A stretch of DNA of 64,000 nt from positions 186,001 through 250,000 of the forward strand of contig CASEWE010000005.1 in the NCBI GenBank assembly GCA_949291555.1, given 5' to 3'. The notes under the pieces are model-generated. The model saw nothing but the letters and a program-made list of their open reading frames with translations, was not told the DNA's origin and made no database searches. Shown piece after piece: positions 51,486-56,900 of this stretch. This stretch comes from an uncultured Bacteroidales bacterium (GTDB taxonomy: Bacteria > Bacteroidota > Bacteroidia > Bacteroidales > P3). The position numbers were made by a program, and so were the translations under genes. Each line of letters begins with the position of its first letter. Position 1 is the stretch's first letter.

Positions 51486-52478
51486 TTAAATCCTGTCGTT
51501 GCTACCCAGCACGTTGATAATCTTGTGCTTGTACAATTCCCGCAAGCAATCGCGGGCCGGTCCCAAGTACTTCCGGGGGTCGAACTCGGCCGGCTTGGTA
51601 GCCAGCACCTCGCGCACCGCCGCCGTCATGGCCAGACGGCCGTCGCTGTCGATATTGATCTTGCAGACCGCCGAAGAGGCCGCCTTGCGCAACTGCTCTT
51701 CCGGAATGCCGATCGCATCCTTCAACGCCCCACCGTACTTGTTGATTGTAGCCACCAAATCCTGCGGCACGCTGCTGGAACCATGCAGCACGATCGGGAA
51801 GCCCGGAATCCGCTTCTCCACTTCCTCCAGAATATCGAAACGCAAAGGCGGTGGAACCAGGATGCCGTCCGCGTTGCGCGTGCACTGCTCCGGCTTGAAC
51901 TTGTTGGCCCCGTGCGACGTCCCGATGGAAATGGCCAACGAATCCACCCCGGTATGCTTCACGAAATCTTCCACCTCTTCGGGTCGCGTATAAGTATGGT
52001 GCTCGGCCTGGACCTCGTCCTCGATACCGGCCAGGACGCCCAGCTCCCCTTCTACCGTCACATCGTACTTGTGCGCGTATTCCACCACCTTCTTGGTCAG
52101 CTCGATATTCTCGGCATACGGCAGGTGCGAGCCGTCGATCATCACCGAAGAGAAACCGTATTCGATGCAGCTCTGGCAAAGCTCGAAACTGTCCCCATGG
52201 TCCAGATGCAGCACGATCGGCACCGCCACGCCCAATTCCTTGGCATATTCCACCGCCCCTTGCGCCATATACCGCAGCAAGGTCTGGTTCGCGTAATTGC
52301 GGGCCCCTTTCGACACCTGCAGGATGACCGGCGACTTCGTTTCCGCGCAGGCCGAGACAATGGCCTGCAACTGCTCCATATTGTTGAAATTGAAAGCCGG
52401 AATAGCGTAACGCCCTTCCATTGCCTTCCTGAAAAGTCCGCGGCTGTTCACCAGCCCGAGTTCCTTGTAATTGACCAT
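51486..52478 (-). CDS. fba: Fructose-1,6-bisphosphate aldolase, class II
   Basis: Zinc-dependent aldolase of glycolysis and gluconeogenesis. The family start is NYKELGLVNSRGLFRKAMEGRYAIPAFNFNNMEQL; zinc ligands and catalytic Asp are in VLHLDHGDSFELC; the second zinc region EHHTYTRPEEVEDF and phosphate-binding AISIGTSHGANKF follow, then VLHGSSSVP and KINIDSDGRLAM. The 330-residue length fits the class II enzymes of this phylum. It is monocistronic, 94 bp downstream of the reverse-strand gene for the serine dehydratase/cysteine desulfidase-family enzyme; a hairpin at 51361 probably ends its transcript. Confidence 0.97.
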   Translation of the reverse strand: MVNYKELGLVNSRGLFRKAMEGRYAIPAFNFNNMEQLQAIVSACAETKSPVILQVSKGARNYANQTLLRYMAQGAVEYAKELGVAVPIVLHLDHGDSFELCQSCIEYGFSSVMIDGSHLPYAENIELTKKVVEYAHKYDVTVEGELGVLAGIEDEVQAEHHTYTRPEEVEDFVKHTGVDSLAISIGTSHGANKFKPEQCTRNADGILVPPPLRFDILEEVEKRIPGFPIVLHGSSSVPQDLVATINKYGGALKDAIGIPEEQLRKAASSAVCKINIDSDGRLAMTAAVREVLATKPAEFDPRKYLGPARDCLRELYKHKIINVLGSNDRI

Positions 52479-52572: not shown

Positions 52573-54198
52573 CTACTCCTTGGCGGGCTTCGCCTTGGGC
52601 TTCCGGGCCTTGGCCGTTTCCTTGCCGGCTGTTTTCACCTTTCCGGCGGCCTCCGCCTTGCCGGGAGCTTTCACCTCGCTGCCGCCCTTGCCCGAACGCT
52701 TGCCGGCCGCGGCCGTTCCCTTCTTTCCGGCCTTTCCTGTCTTTCCGGCTTCGGATCGCGCGGAAGCGCCGGCCTTCTTGGAGGAAGCCGTCCGGGAGGA
52801 GGCCGCCTTGGAAGAAGACACCTTTGAAGAAGCCGCTTTGCCAACGCCCTTTTTCCCCCGCGTCTCCGCCGGCCCCTGCGCCTGCTTGCGGTCGCTCTTG
52901 CCCAGCATGATTTCCAGAATCACATTGTCGGCATCCTTCATGGCCTTGCGGGCAATCAAGCCGATATTCCGGATCGTATTTTCCACATCGTCGTCGATAA
53001 TCCCATTGGTTCCCGGAACGCAAATGTCGTCCAAGGCCATGACCGCCGCCTGCATGGCCGCGCTCGTGCCGGAAGCCACCTTCAAGGCGCAGCCCAGCTT
53101 CGCCCCGTCGCACACCATCCCGGTCAGGTTCCCGGCCATGTTCTGGATGGCGAACTTTATCTGCTCCTTGCTCCCGCCCAAGAGATAGCAAACCCCGCAG
53201 GCGGCACCCGTGGAAGCCACCACGACCCCGCATGCGGCCGAAAGACGCCCGAAGCCGTGCTTGATATGGATGGCGGTCAGGTTGCTGATCATCAAAGCCC
53301 GGGCCAGCATCTCTTCCGAAGCCTTCAGCTTCTCGGCCACCGCCAGCACGGGAGTCATGGCCGTGATTCCCTGGTTCCCGCTTCCCGAATTGCTCATGGC
53401 CGGCAGCATGGCGCCCGACATGCGGGCATCGGAAGCCGCCGCGGTAACCGCCATGGCATAATCGGTGTATTCGTTCATGGCCTTGTGCGCCTTCATCCAT
53501 TCCAGCAACGTAGCCCCGATGCCCATGCCGCTCTTGTGCGCGATCCCGTAAGAGGCCAGTTCCCGGTTGAGCCGGGCCTTGTCCAATATGAACTTGATCT
53601 TGGAAAACGGCTGCTTGGTGGCAAACTCGTAAATCTCGTCCATGGTGATATGGTACATGTCCTCCTCGTCCTTGGCGCCCTTTGCCGATGCCTTTTTCCT
53701 GAACACCGCCTTGCCGTCCGACTCCACCAGCACGAAATTCTGGTGTTCTTCCTCAATCACGGCCCGGGTCGAATGCTCCCCTGCCACACAAACCGCATCG
53801 GCGTAAACCTTGTTGCAATCCTTCACGATTTCGATCTCTACCCGCTTTTCGGCAACGTATTCCTGCGCTTTCCCGACATGGGATGGCTTTACGCCCGACA
53901 ACACTTCCAGTTCCTTGGAAGAATCCCCGACGATAGCGCCCAAAGCCGACCCGATATACAAGCCCGTGAGCGGGGTCCCGGGAATGCCCACCCCCATGCC
54001 GTTCTTGTAAATGTTCAGGCTGGTCTTGACAAGAACCTTCTCCGGCACGAGGTCTTTCTTGCCGGCCGCTTTCCGCAATTCTTCCGCAGCCCTCGCCACC
54101 GCCAATGCAACCGCGATAGGCTCGGTACATCCCAATGCGGGAACCACCTCTTTTTCCAAAAGGCGGTACATGTCTTGAATTTTCTTCGCGCTAAGCAT
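52573..54198 (-). CDS. L-serine dehydratase/cysteine desulfidase-family (UPF0597, CyuA/YhaM-like) enzyme with histone-like tail
   Basis: Residues 1-434 are a complete UPF0597 enzyme: EVVPALGCTEPIAVALA with the cluster Cys, SLNIYKNGMGVGIPG, the NSGSGNQGITAMTPVLAVAE segment (Ser/Gly-rich substrate loop), ASTGAACGVCYLLGG and MVCDGAKLGCALKV with further Cys, and DDDVENTIRNIG. The family removes sulfide from cysteine or water from serine with a 4Fe-4S cluster. Residues 435-541 are a 107-residue tail almost wholly of Lys, Ala, Gly, Ser and Thr (KKGVGKAASSK, KTGKAGKKG, KARKPKAKPAKE), like histone H1 or AlgP tails. Start at ATG 54198; the frame is open upstream but without similarity. Confidence 0.9.
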   Translation of the reverse strand: MLSAKKIQDMYRLLEKEVVPALGCTEPIAVALAVARAAEELRKAAGKKDLVPEKVLVKTSLNIYKNGMGVGIPGTPLTGLYIGSALGAIVGDSSKELEVLSGVKPSHVGKAQEYVAEKRVEIEIVKDCNKVYADAVCVAGEHSTRAVIEEEHQNFVLVESDGKAVFRKKASAKGAKDEEDMYHITMDEIYEFATKQPFSKIKFILDKARLNRELASYGIAHKSGMGIGATLLEWMKAHKAMNEYTDYAMAVTAAASDARMSGAMLPAMSNSGSGNQGITAMTPVLAVAEKLKASEEMLARALMISNLTAIHIKHGFGRLSAACGVVVASTGAACGVCYLLGGSKEQIKFAIQNMAGNLTGMVCDGAKLGCALKVASGTSAAMQAAVMALDDICVPGTNGIIDDDVENTIRNIGLIARKAMKDADNVILEIMLGKSDRKQAQGPAETRGKKGVGKAASSKVSSSKAASSRTASSKKAGASARSEAGKTGKAGKKGTAAAGKRSGKGGSEVKAPGKAEAAGKVKTAGKETAKARKPKAKPAKE

Positions 54199-54507: not shown

Positions 54508-56418
54508 CTATTTCACTACCGTGATCTTGCGCACGGACACCTTGCCGTCCTGGGAAATGCGCACCACGTACGCGCCGGCCTCGAAACCATCGGTGGAAAT
54601 GGTAACATCGCCACCGGCTTTTTCCTGCCCGTAGACCTTGCGGCCCATCAGGTCGAAAATCTCGATCTGCGCGTTTTCAAGCCCGCTGACATGGAAATAG
54701 CCGCGAGCCGGATTCGGGTAGAGGCGCACATCGGCCAGTTCGTCCTTTTCCGTGGAGACGTTCAAGACAATCTCGTCTTCGCGCACATCGAACGTGCAGG
54801 AATTGTAGATTTCCCGCGTTGCCACATCCTGCAGGAAGCACATCACTTCCAAGTCGGCATATTCTTCCACCAAGGTGGACGTCATGTCGACCTTGTAGCT
54901 GAACACGCTCGTTTCCCCGGCCGTGAGCTGCACTTCCTCGCCGTAGGAACCGGCCGGAGCGGCCAAAGCCACCCAGTGGAAAGCCTTTTCACCGTTGGTG
55001 CCCTTGTACTTGGAAACCGTTCCTTCGGTCACCACCGGAACCAGGTTCAGGCGCATGTCGGCCAAAGGCGTGACATGGACCTCGAAGCTGATTTCCCGGG
55101 CCGCGCTGTCCACTACCACATTGACCAGCTCCATGCCGGCCATGGCCTTTCTGGCATGCGCCTCCGCGGCCTCGACCTTCAAGCGGGTCATCATGCCCAC
55201 GTACTGGTTGGTCCAATCGGTAATATTGGTCTCGGCGTTGTAGATAGGCGCCGGGACATAACCCTGGGTCATATCGTAATAATACATGTAACGGTCATTG
55301 CCGATCGCAATCGCGTAGCGGTCGCCGCTCTGCTGGAACTTCACCGGGCTGATTTTCCCTTCAAGGTAAAGGGTCTTCAACGCATCGTTCAAATAATGGT
55401 TCATCGTGTTGCAAGGCCCGCACCAGGAAGCCGAGAACACTTCCATTACCGGAACATAGGCCGAAGCCGCAGCGGTATCGGTGCTGAAGTGCCAGTACAT
55501 CGTGTCGGGATCGGCCACCGGCGCCTCGTTCAAAGAGGTAGGCCATACCGTCAGGACATTCATCCCTTCCGTCAAATCGCCGTTCAAGGCGATATCGGCG
55601 GTCAGCGAAGCACCCATTGCCAAAGACGAGCGCACCAAGTTGCCGGCATCCACCGCCTCGCCCCCGTTGAGCGAATAGGAGAAGGAGCCTTCCGTAATGG
55701 TTGTCGAACCGCCGTTACGCAAGTTCAAGCGCACCTTCTTGCCGAAATTCTCGTATTCGAACCTGCCCACCGCAATAGAAGGAACCACCGTGGGTTCGGT
55801 ATAATAGGAAGCGAACATCACGTTGCCGATGAAGAAAGCGTACCAGCTTCCCTCCGGCTGGTTGGAAACGGTAAAGAAGAAAGCCAGTTCCACGGTCTTT
55901 CCCCCATAGGTGTCGGGCAGTTTCACCGCGGGCGAACCTTCCCCTTCGGCCGGCATGGCTTCGCCTTCCCCGCAAAGACGGTAAATCGTGTCCCATTCCC
56001 CGCCTGTCTCGCGCACCATAAGGCCGAAATTGCGGTTGGCGCCGGCAGCGGCGGCATAAGCGATGTAATCGAAAGTCACCATGTTGTCCACGCCGCTATC
56101 CAACGTATGGGCATGGGTAACCAGGATATACGTTCCTTCCAAGGGCGTAGTGGCCACCGGCCGGCCGTACTGGTCGCCGATGAAGTCGGCACCCGGGTCG
56201 TAGCACCAGCCTACCGCCACCATGGAGGGCTGGCTGAATTGCACCACATAGGCAGGGCCGCCGGCCGAGGCTATCTCGGACGAAGCCGGGATGTTCCAAT
56301 TGGTCGAGGTCAAGCCGCTGGCGAAGTCGTCGTTGAAGTAAATGGTCTTCTGCCCCCAAGCCAGCATCGGAAGCGAAACCAAGGCGGCGAAAACCGCCAT
56401 GAAAAGGGTCTTTTTCAT
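54508..56418 (-). CDS. Secreted thioredoxin-fold protein with T9SS type A sorting domain
   Basis: A 636-residue T9SS cargo. It has a signal peptide (KKTLFMAVFAALVSLPMLAWG), an N-terminal jelly-roll/choice-of-anchor domain (IYFNDDFASGLTSTNWNIP, residues about 25-200), beta-sandwich regions, a thioredoxin-like domain with FSASWCGPCNTMNHYLND (CxxC at about residues 345-348), as in Omp28-related proteins, and a C-terminal sorting domain (VRLYPNPARGYFHV ... IEIFDLMGRKVY ... GAYVVRIS ... VRKITVVK). The last is removed at the surface by the PorU sortase. The start at 56418 precedes the signal peptide; the frame continues to 56742 through a purine-rich stretch that is not part of the protein. Confidence 0.92.
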   Translation of the reverse strand: MKKTLFMAVFAALVSLPMLAWGQKTIYFNDDFASGLTSTNWNIPASSEIASAGGPAYVVQFSQPSMVAVGWCYDPGADFIGDQYGRPVATTPLEGTYILVTHAHTLDSGVDNMVTFDYIAYAAAAGANRNFGLMVRETGGEWDTIYRLCGEGEAMPAEGEGSPAVKLPDTYGGKTVELAFFFTVSNQPEGSWYAFFIGNVMFASYYTEPTVVPSIAVGRFEYENFGKKVRLNLRNGGSTTITEGSFSYSLNGGEAVDAGNLVRSSLAMGASLTADIALNGDLTEGMNVLTVWPTSLNEAPVADPDTMYWHFSTDTAAASAYVPVMEVFSASWCGPCNTMNHYLNDALKTLYLEGKISPVKFQQSGDRYAIAIGNDRYMYYYDMTQGYVPAPIYNAETNITDWTNQYVGMMTRLKVEAAEAHARKAMAGMELVNVVVDSAAREISFEVHVTPLADMRLNLVPVVTEGTVSKYKGTNGEKAFHWVALAAPAGSYGEEVQLTAGETSVFSYKVDMTSTLVEEYADLEVMCFLQDVATREIYNSCTFDVREDEIVLNVSTEKDELADVRLYPNPARGYFHVSGLENAQIEIFDLMGRKVYGQEKAGGDVTISTDGFEAGAYVVRISQDGKVSVRKITVVK

Positions 56419-56492
56419 AGAGTGTAATTTTAAATCTATTAAATGCAAGTATTTCGTTTTCGGTTCTGTTTTCGGTTTCGGTCTTTCCGCTA

Positions 56493-56576
56493 TTTCCTTC
56501 TTCTCTTTCTCTCCTTCTTTTTCCTTCCTCTTCCTTTCTCGCTCCTTCTCCCTTTTTTTCTCCTCCCCCATTCCCT
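56493..56576. repeat. Homopurine/homopyrimidine tract
   Basis: On the plus strand 56493-56540 is 48 uninterrupted pyrimidines, then one G, 28 pyrimidines (56542-56569), one A, and six more. On the minus strand it is a purine run of 84 nt with two interruptions in the leader of the T9SS substrate gene. Such mirror-like tracts can form triplex DNA. Confidence 0.95.
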
Positions 56577-56900
56577 GCTTGTCTCCACCATCCTTCCTCC
56601 TGCCTTCCGGGCGTTTTCCCCGCAAGCCTGCCCGGCTTCCGAAAAACCGGCCGCAACGCCGCCATCCGCATCTTCCTGCCTTCTTTTGCGAAACGCGCCT
56701 TCCTTGCGAAACAAGCCCGGTCCAAGAAACCCCGGAGTCCAAGACACCCCGGAAAAGAAGCGCACGAATTTAAGAAAAAAAACCGGCCCGGCAACACCCT
56801 CGTTCCCGCTTTGCCAAAACAAAAAAGGAAGCCCGCGCGCAGGGCAAGGCAAGGAAAGGCAAACCCAAGCAATCCGGGCCCGGTCGAAAAGTTCCCCGGT

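Follow-up and report, generated by a model that had tools for sequence, protein, structure and literature searches.

An otherwise ordinary CyuA-type L-cysteine desulfidase with an unusual, lineage-specific basic tail in an uncultured Bacteroidales bacterium

Why should a metabolic iron-sulfur enzyme end in a long stretch of sequence that resembles the tail of a histone H1? The question is raised by a gene in the DNA studied here, a stretch of 64,000 nucleotides (contig CASEWE010000005.1, positions 186,001 to 250,000) from an uncultured Bacteroidales bacterium, to which we refer throughout as the window. A preliminary description of this DNA had recognized an enzyme of the serine dehydratase/cysteine desulfidase family, complete with 434 residues, and an in-frame low-complexity extension of 107 residues behind it. 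The gene, which encodes a CyuA-type L-cysteine desulfidase of 541 residues, runs from 54198 to 52573 on the minus strand and starts with a conserved N-terminus, MLSAKK. This is the start chosen in the preliminary description, and it is correct: the upstream in-frame extension, which would give an open reading frame of 640 residues, is not common to relatives. The features on which the analysis is based are the following (window coordinates):

52897 to 54198, minus strand: core of the CyuA-type L-cysteine desulfidase, 434 residues (SDH_alpha PF03313 at residues 162-429, structure match, conserved residues)
52576 to 52896, minus strand: K/A/G/S-rich basic C-terminal tail, 107 residues, net charge +23, predicted disordered (residue counts, pLDDT about 26-36)
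52777 to 52835, minus strand: degenerate tandem array of four 15-nt units encoding SSKxx / SSRxx (repeat family D3)
52620 to 52749, minus strand: degenerate 18-nt (and 9-nt) tandem units encoding xGKxxA-type motifs (repeat families D1, D2, D6)
52573 to 52575, minus strand: TAG stop codon of the CyuA gene
51486 to 52478, minus strand: class II fructose-bisphosphate aldolase-like gene, named from its own sequence, 94 nt past the cyuA stop

Pfam, invariant residues and predicted fold agree that the enzyme part is complete. Pfam recognizes SDH_alpha (PF03313, E = 1.6e-61) at residues 162-429 of the window protein, and a sequence search of solved structures returned as best match the L-cysteine desulfidase of M. 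maripaludis (PDB 9fsl/9he0, E = 1.6e-38), with a serine dehydratase as a distant match (E = 0.042). The same order is found at the level of the predicted fold: an AlphaFold model calculated from 36 homologues (mean pLDDT 78, with the CyuA core mostly above 90) gave in Foldseek a TM score of 0.87 over the target length to the M. maripaludis enzyme (MmCyuA, PDB 9he0) versus 0.57 to the serine dehydratase 4rqo. The cluster ligands of MmCyuA have been identified, and its Cys/Glu proton-abstraction dyad is reported to be unique to CyuA as compared to SdaA/B (PMC12647591). The closest known counterparts of the window protein are MmCyuA (PDB 9he0/9fyi/9fsl) and the CyuA of E. coli. It has the predicted fold of MmCyuA; its C24 and E26 correspond to Cys23 and Glu25 of that enzyme, its C323, C363 and C370 to the cluster ligands Cys287, Cys329 and Cys336, and all five residues are identical in 36/36 homologues. 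The two proteins differ in a non-conserved fourth cluster ligand, Cys289 in MmCyuA and Val325 here (Cys in 32/36 homologues), and in the 107-residue basic tail, which has no counterpart in MmCyuA. Removal of the fourth ligand does not lower the activity of the published enzyme (PMC12647591); the Val325 codon lies at 53224-53226 on the minus strand, and the window protein resembles at this position the active C289A mutant of MmCyuA. Since the dyad and the three cluster cysteines are invariant, the fold matches, and the fourth ligand is dispensable in the published enzyme, the gene should encode an active [4Fe-4S] CyuA with its catalytic core intact, which would convert cysteine to pyruvate, NH3 and H2S. 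An L-serine dehydratase of the SdaA/B type, in which a C-terminal Cys is the fourth cluster ligand and a His the base, was considered and rejected: neither the tail nor the end of the core has a Cys that could serve as such a ligand, the CyuA dyad is present, and 4rqo is distant. The family assignment of the preliminary description was therefore right, and can be narrowed to CyuA by the structure matches, the fold and the residues.

The tail comprises residues 435-541, in frame with the core, and is as unusual in composition as the preliminary description had it. The 107 residues include 24 K, 24 A, 16 G, 14 S, 6 R, 6 E and a single D (K+R 30 versus D+E 7), with no aromatic residues, no I, L or M and no Cys. 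Among 27,016 windows of 107 residues sampled from the same genome, an entropy as low as that of the tail was found in only 2, and a net charge of +23 was reached by 17. Pfam found no match to the tail alone, and the tail used as a query against its own genome retrieved only itself. Residues 436-541 have pLDDT values below 50, with no secondary structure past the end of the last core helix; these low values are consistent with a disordered tail, although they are not proof of disorder. From a disordered, net-positive tail in which hydrophobic residues are nearly lacking, one would expect binding to polyanions irrespective of their sequence. The DNA that encodes the tail is built from degenerate tandem units, the 18-nt units lying around 52620-52688 and 52710-52749 (the latter with periods of both 18 and 9), so that the tail looks as if it had grown by repeat duplication with later drift.

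The distribution of the tail was studied in the 13 genomes of the genus (g1), 11 of which, including the one analyzed here, have a CyuA; the other CyuAs are 70-76% identical to the window protein, and no CyuA was found in G010. Five of the 11 proteins carry a basic C-terminal extension, always from the same start: 5 residues in G003 (KKTKK), 21 in G009, 21 in G005, 34 in G004 and 107 in the window protein, with a net charge per residue from +0.21 to +0.80. The remaining six (G001, G002, G006, G007, G008, G012) have essentially none, with 0-2 residues past the last conserved Lys of the core; G002 and G012 have only KK/KEK. While the sequence of the tail is not conserved residue by residue among relatives, the closely related G004 and G005 have kept its two ends and its charge (THKPAAKKK...KNKTKK) and differ by an indel in the middle. 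In the sister genus g9 CyuA ends with LSK and is untailed, and in the other family members read it ends at the end of the core or within a few residues of it. We also carried out an alignment-based scan of named genomes (Bacteroidales, Clostridiaceae, Spirochaetales, Desulfobacula and others), which yielded 80 loci with 79 readable C-termini: the only tailed one, L123, has a tail identical to that of G009. A scan of contigs with a single sequence as query yielded no CyuA loci. Since outside the genus the protein stops where the core does, the CyuA tail is, on the sequences compared, a novelty of one genus of an uncultured Bacteroidales family, with a gradation in length; its absence from six of the 11 proteins of the genus and from all the outside homologues read indicates that it is dispensable for the enzyme. 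With respect to conservation, which the preliminary description had named as a point to check, the sign of the charge is kept in all tails compared, and tails are present on five of the 11 CyuAs of the genus.

Basic tails are not a general habit of these genomes. With a basic tail defined as 12 residues or more, a survey that covered about 55% of the genome analyzed here found such tails in 15/771 called genes, compared to 3/423 in G004 and 1/229 in G007; genes were called with a crude codon-score script, and these counts are approximate. They do not support a genome-wide tendency to lysine-rich C-termini. The tailed genes that could be identified in the first set are largely those of a DEAD helicase, TopA, RNase R, ribosomal proteins and envelope proteins, and include also a polyphosphate kinase, CyuA and a Cys_Met_Meta_PP lyase; tails of at least 20 residues were found among the 423 genes of G004 only in CyuA and in a DUF5606 protein. 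Basic tails on metabolic enzymes are rare. Some individual cases were recorded in passing: polyphosphate kinase 1 (L204:1-1587, own genome, contig C1 from 180001) has a 15-residue basic C-terminal end, SSRKQNGKPGKTKEP; a DEAD helicase with a DbpA RNA-binding domain (L108:15593-17857) has a K/A-rich tail of about 120 residues; and a DUF5606/DUF6852 protein of G004 (L085:855-1652) has one of 109 residues. In nearly every genome of the genus, the match to TopA stops only a few residues short of the tailed C-terminus, and the DEAD helicase, whose extensions were compared by length, has long ones even where CyuA and the lyase are untailed.

The lyase is a second metabolic enzyme with a tail of the same kind, a fact that, like the gradation in length across species, could not be seen in the preliminary description. 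In the genome analyzed here this methionine-gamma-lyase-like PLP enzyme (L043:2903-4201, contig C4 122903-124201) has a K/A-rich tail of 28 residues ending with AAKKPAKAKAAAMPAAKKKAGCARKRAK. It is a Cys_Met_Meta_PP protein whose best NCBIfam model, methionine gamma-lyase, scores far below cut-off; as it reaches the curated cut-off in none of the NCBIfam models shown, its substrate assignment is putative. Orthologues in G003, G004, G005, G009 and G011 have tails of 9-23 residues, those in G001, G006, G007 and G008 have none, and no close orthologue was found in G002, G010 and G012; these last three form a clade within genus g1, and their draft genomes are small (1.2-1.7 Mb). The lyase tails (9-35 residues) are similar to the CyuA tail in being K-rich, in their A/T/S/G make-up and in their position just past the core, while the fold of the PLP enzyme is unlike that of CyuA. 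They also differ in distribution, as the lyase tail is present in the sister genus (13 residues in G030, 35 in G049) and the CyuA tail is not. The sign of the charge is positive in all 13 tails, of CyuA and lyase together, that were compared. From these distributions, the tail of the lyase probably came first and was lost on one occasion, and that of CyuA arose inside the genus.

Tails of this type have precedents in other bacteria. In Pseudomonas, PhaF and AlgP have K/A/P-rich tails by which granules are considered to be anchored to the nucleoid; AlgP is also found in association with polyphosphate granules (PMC9239181, PMC13052382). Like the CyuA tail, for which disorder is predicted, the histone H1-like C-terminal domains of these two proteins are long, disordered, K/A-rich and repeat-built (PMC9239181), and they are similar in size. 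They consist, however, of KPAA repeats with many Pro, whereas the CyuA tail has SSKxx and xGKxxA units, few Pro and no KPAA unit, and their hosts are granule-associated proteins rather than an Fe-S enzyme. Actinobacterial TopA also has a basic K-rich C-terminal region on an enzyme: this lysine-repeat domain is reported to raise processivity (PMC7398561). Its host, unlike CyuA, is a DNA enzyme, so that DNA binding is expected there.

The reading that we tentatively put first, by analogy with these systems and without claiming even odds for it, is that of a lineage-specific, repeat-grown polycationic tail that serves as an electrostatic tether and attaches weakly to RNA, nucleoid or polyphosphate. 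The preliminary description had already suggested a nucleoid tether, next to an element of oligomerization or solubility, and both are conjectural roles. Slippage or duplication of the 15- and 18-nt repeats would extend the protein just past the near-invariant last Lys of the core; the disordered polycationic tail would leave the catalytic core intact and would bind polyanions (rRNA/mRNA, nucleoid DNA, polyphosphate) weakly and without sequence specificity; and the tether would shift the location of an enzyme that releases sulfide and pyruvate, not its catalysis. Polyanion binding and any effect of the tail on localization or fitness are what we infer here. On the side of the sequences, a charge sign that is constant despite the range of lengths, the preserved ends in G004 and G005 and a second enzyme, the lyase, with a tail of the same make-up would argue for the tether; the rarity of basic tails on metabolic enzymes and the PhaF/AlgP precedent point in the same direction. 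Against it are the absence of the tail from six of the 11 CyuAs of the genus and from all outside homologues read, a length of 107 residues in one species only, and the lack of residue-by-residue conservation. If the tail does bind polyanions, this would be a bacterial metabolic sulfur enzyme repositioned by a simple, fast-evolving charge tag, and the different tail lengths available within a single genus would make the effect testable as a function of length.

The same variability and dispensability put close behind the tether, as a somewhat less probable but serious contender, a near-neutral low-complexity expansion, in which a Lys-ended C-terminus tolerates repeats of K/A/G/S codons and the product is soluble and harmless, with no selected function. 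A length that goes from 0 to 107 residues, the repeat-unit structure and the absence of the tail in about half of the genus and all outgroups are what this reading predicts. The preliminary description had mentioned a recent low-complexity expansion, and that suggestion holds as far as length and repeat structure are concerned (107 residues in one species, 15- and 18-nt units). It accounts less easily for the fact that every tail is strongly positive, nearly free of hydrophobic residues and poor in acidic ones or devoid of them, and that the close pair G004/G005 keeps both tail ends across an indel. The choice of hosts is also against it: the lyase is tailed alike, while no tail was found in the C-termini read of SufS, the PALP enzyme and the aminotransferases of the same genomes, and few further metabolic enzymes are tailed in the sample. 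If neutral, the tail would be a clean example of how a disordered basic tail originates.

A third reading, which we consider improbable, is that polycationic tails, added separately, bring CyuA and the methionine-gamma-lyase-like enzyme to one site, such as an RNA- or polyphosphate-rich condensate or the nucleoid; that such a common site would serve to channel or contain sulfide and thiols, as both enzymes are expected to release volatile sulfur compounds, is just as doubtful. What suggests a shared tag is the agreement between the two enzymes in nine genomes of the genus: both are tailed in G000 (the genome analyzed here), G003, G004, G005 and G009, and both untailed in G001, G006, G007 and G008. 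Furthermore, G002 and G012, in which no lyase gene was detected, have only KK/KEK on CyuA, the SufS and PALP C-termini read are never tailed, and the polyphosphate kinase of the genome analyzed here has its 15-residue basic end. In a tree of four concatenated proteins, however, the untailed G001/G006/G007/G008 form one clade and G002/G010/G012 another; once these groupings and the pattern in the sister genus are taken into account, the agreement comes down to one or two events, which is not enough for a test, and it cannot count as significant. A strict co-occurrence of the two tails is already broken by the sister genus, in which the lyase is tailed and CyuA is not, and the putative nature of the lyase substrate weakens the argument further. 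Two related ideas were discarded: that a tail is a general feature of sulfur enzymes (in 13/13 loci read, SufS has none), and that the tail makes up for the lack of a cysteine desulfurase (none of the genomes lacks a SufS-like enzyme). For the tether, the matching lyase tail has the consequence that a coordinated placement of sulfide and thiol production becomes directly testable.

That the tail is an artefact of sequencing, assembly or frameshift, as might be suspected in a draft genome of 24 contigs with the 107-residue length in one species only, is very improbable, because the shorter basic tails of orthologues in independent genomes begin at the same point, and because the codon usage of the tail is normal (as in the body of the gene, K is mostly AAG and A mostly GCC/GCG), the downstream gene is intact and in the same order as in relatives, and the two alternative frames, which are Arg/Pro-rich or Gly/Arg/Gln-rich, offer no explanation. 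Read-through or a frameshift into intergenic DNA was likewise rejected: relatives have 6-131 nt between cyuA and the downstream gene, and this interval contains no source for the tail. The preliminary description had allowed that the tail might prove absent from all close relatives and be due to a frameshift or assembly error; tailed orthologues do exist. Overall, the enzyme is real and, apart from its unusual lineage-specific tail, ordinary. A narrow literature search found no paper combining 'cysteine desulfidase' with 'C-terminal extension', which is not proof of novelty.

Some observations on the gene and its surroundings can be added. The CyuAs of genera g1 and g9 are 63-76% identical to the window protein; in the remaining genera of the family this value falls to about 40-44%, which points to an old split or a transfer. 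The aldolase-like gene lies directly downstream of cyuA in 11/11 cyuA loci of the genus. The product of the next gene upstream (54508-56742, minus strand), as judged by eye from the sequence, is a large protein that looks secreted, contains a CGPC motif and has a C-terminal end resembling a type IX secretion sorting domain.
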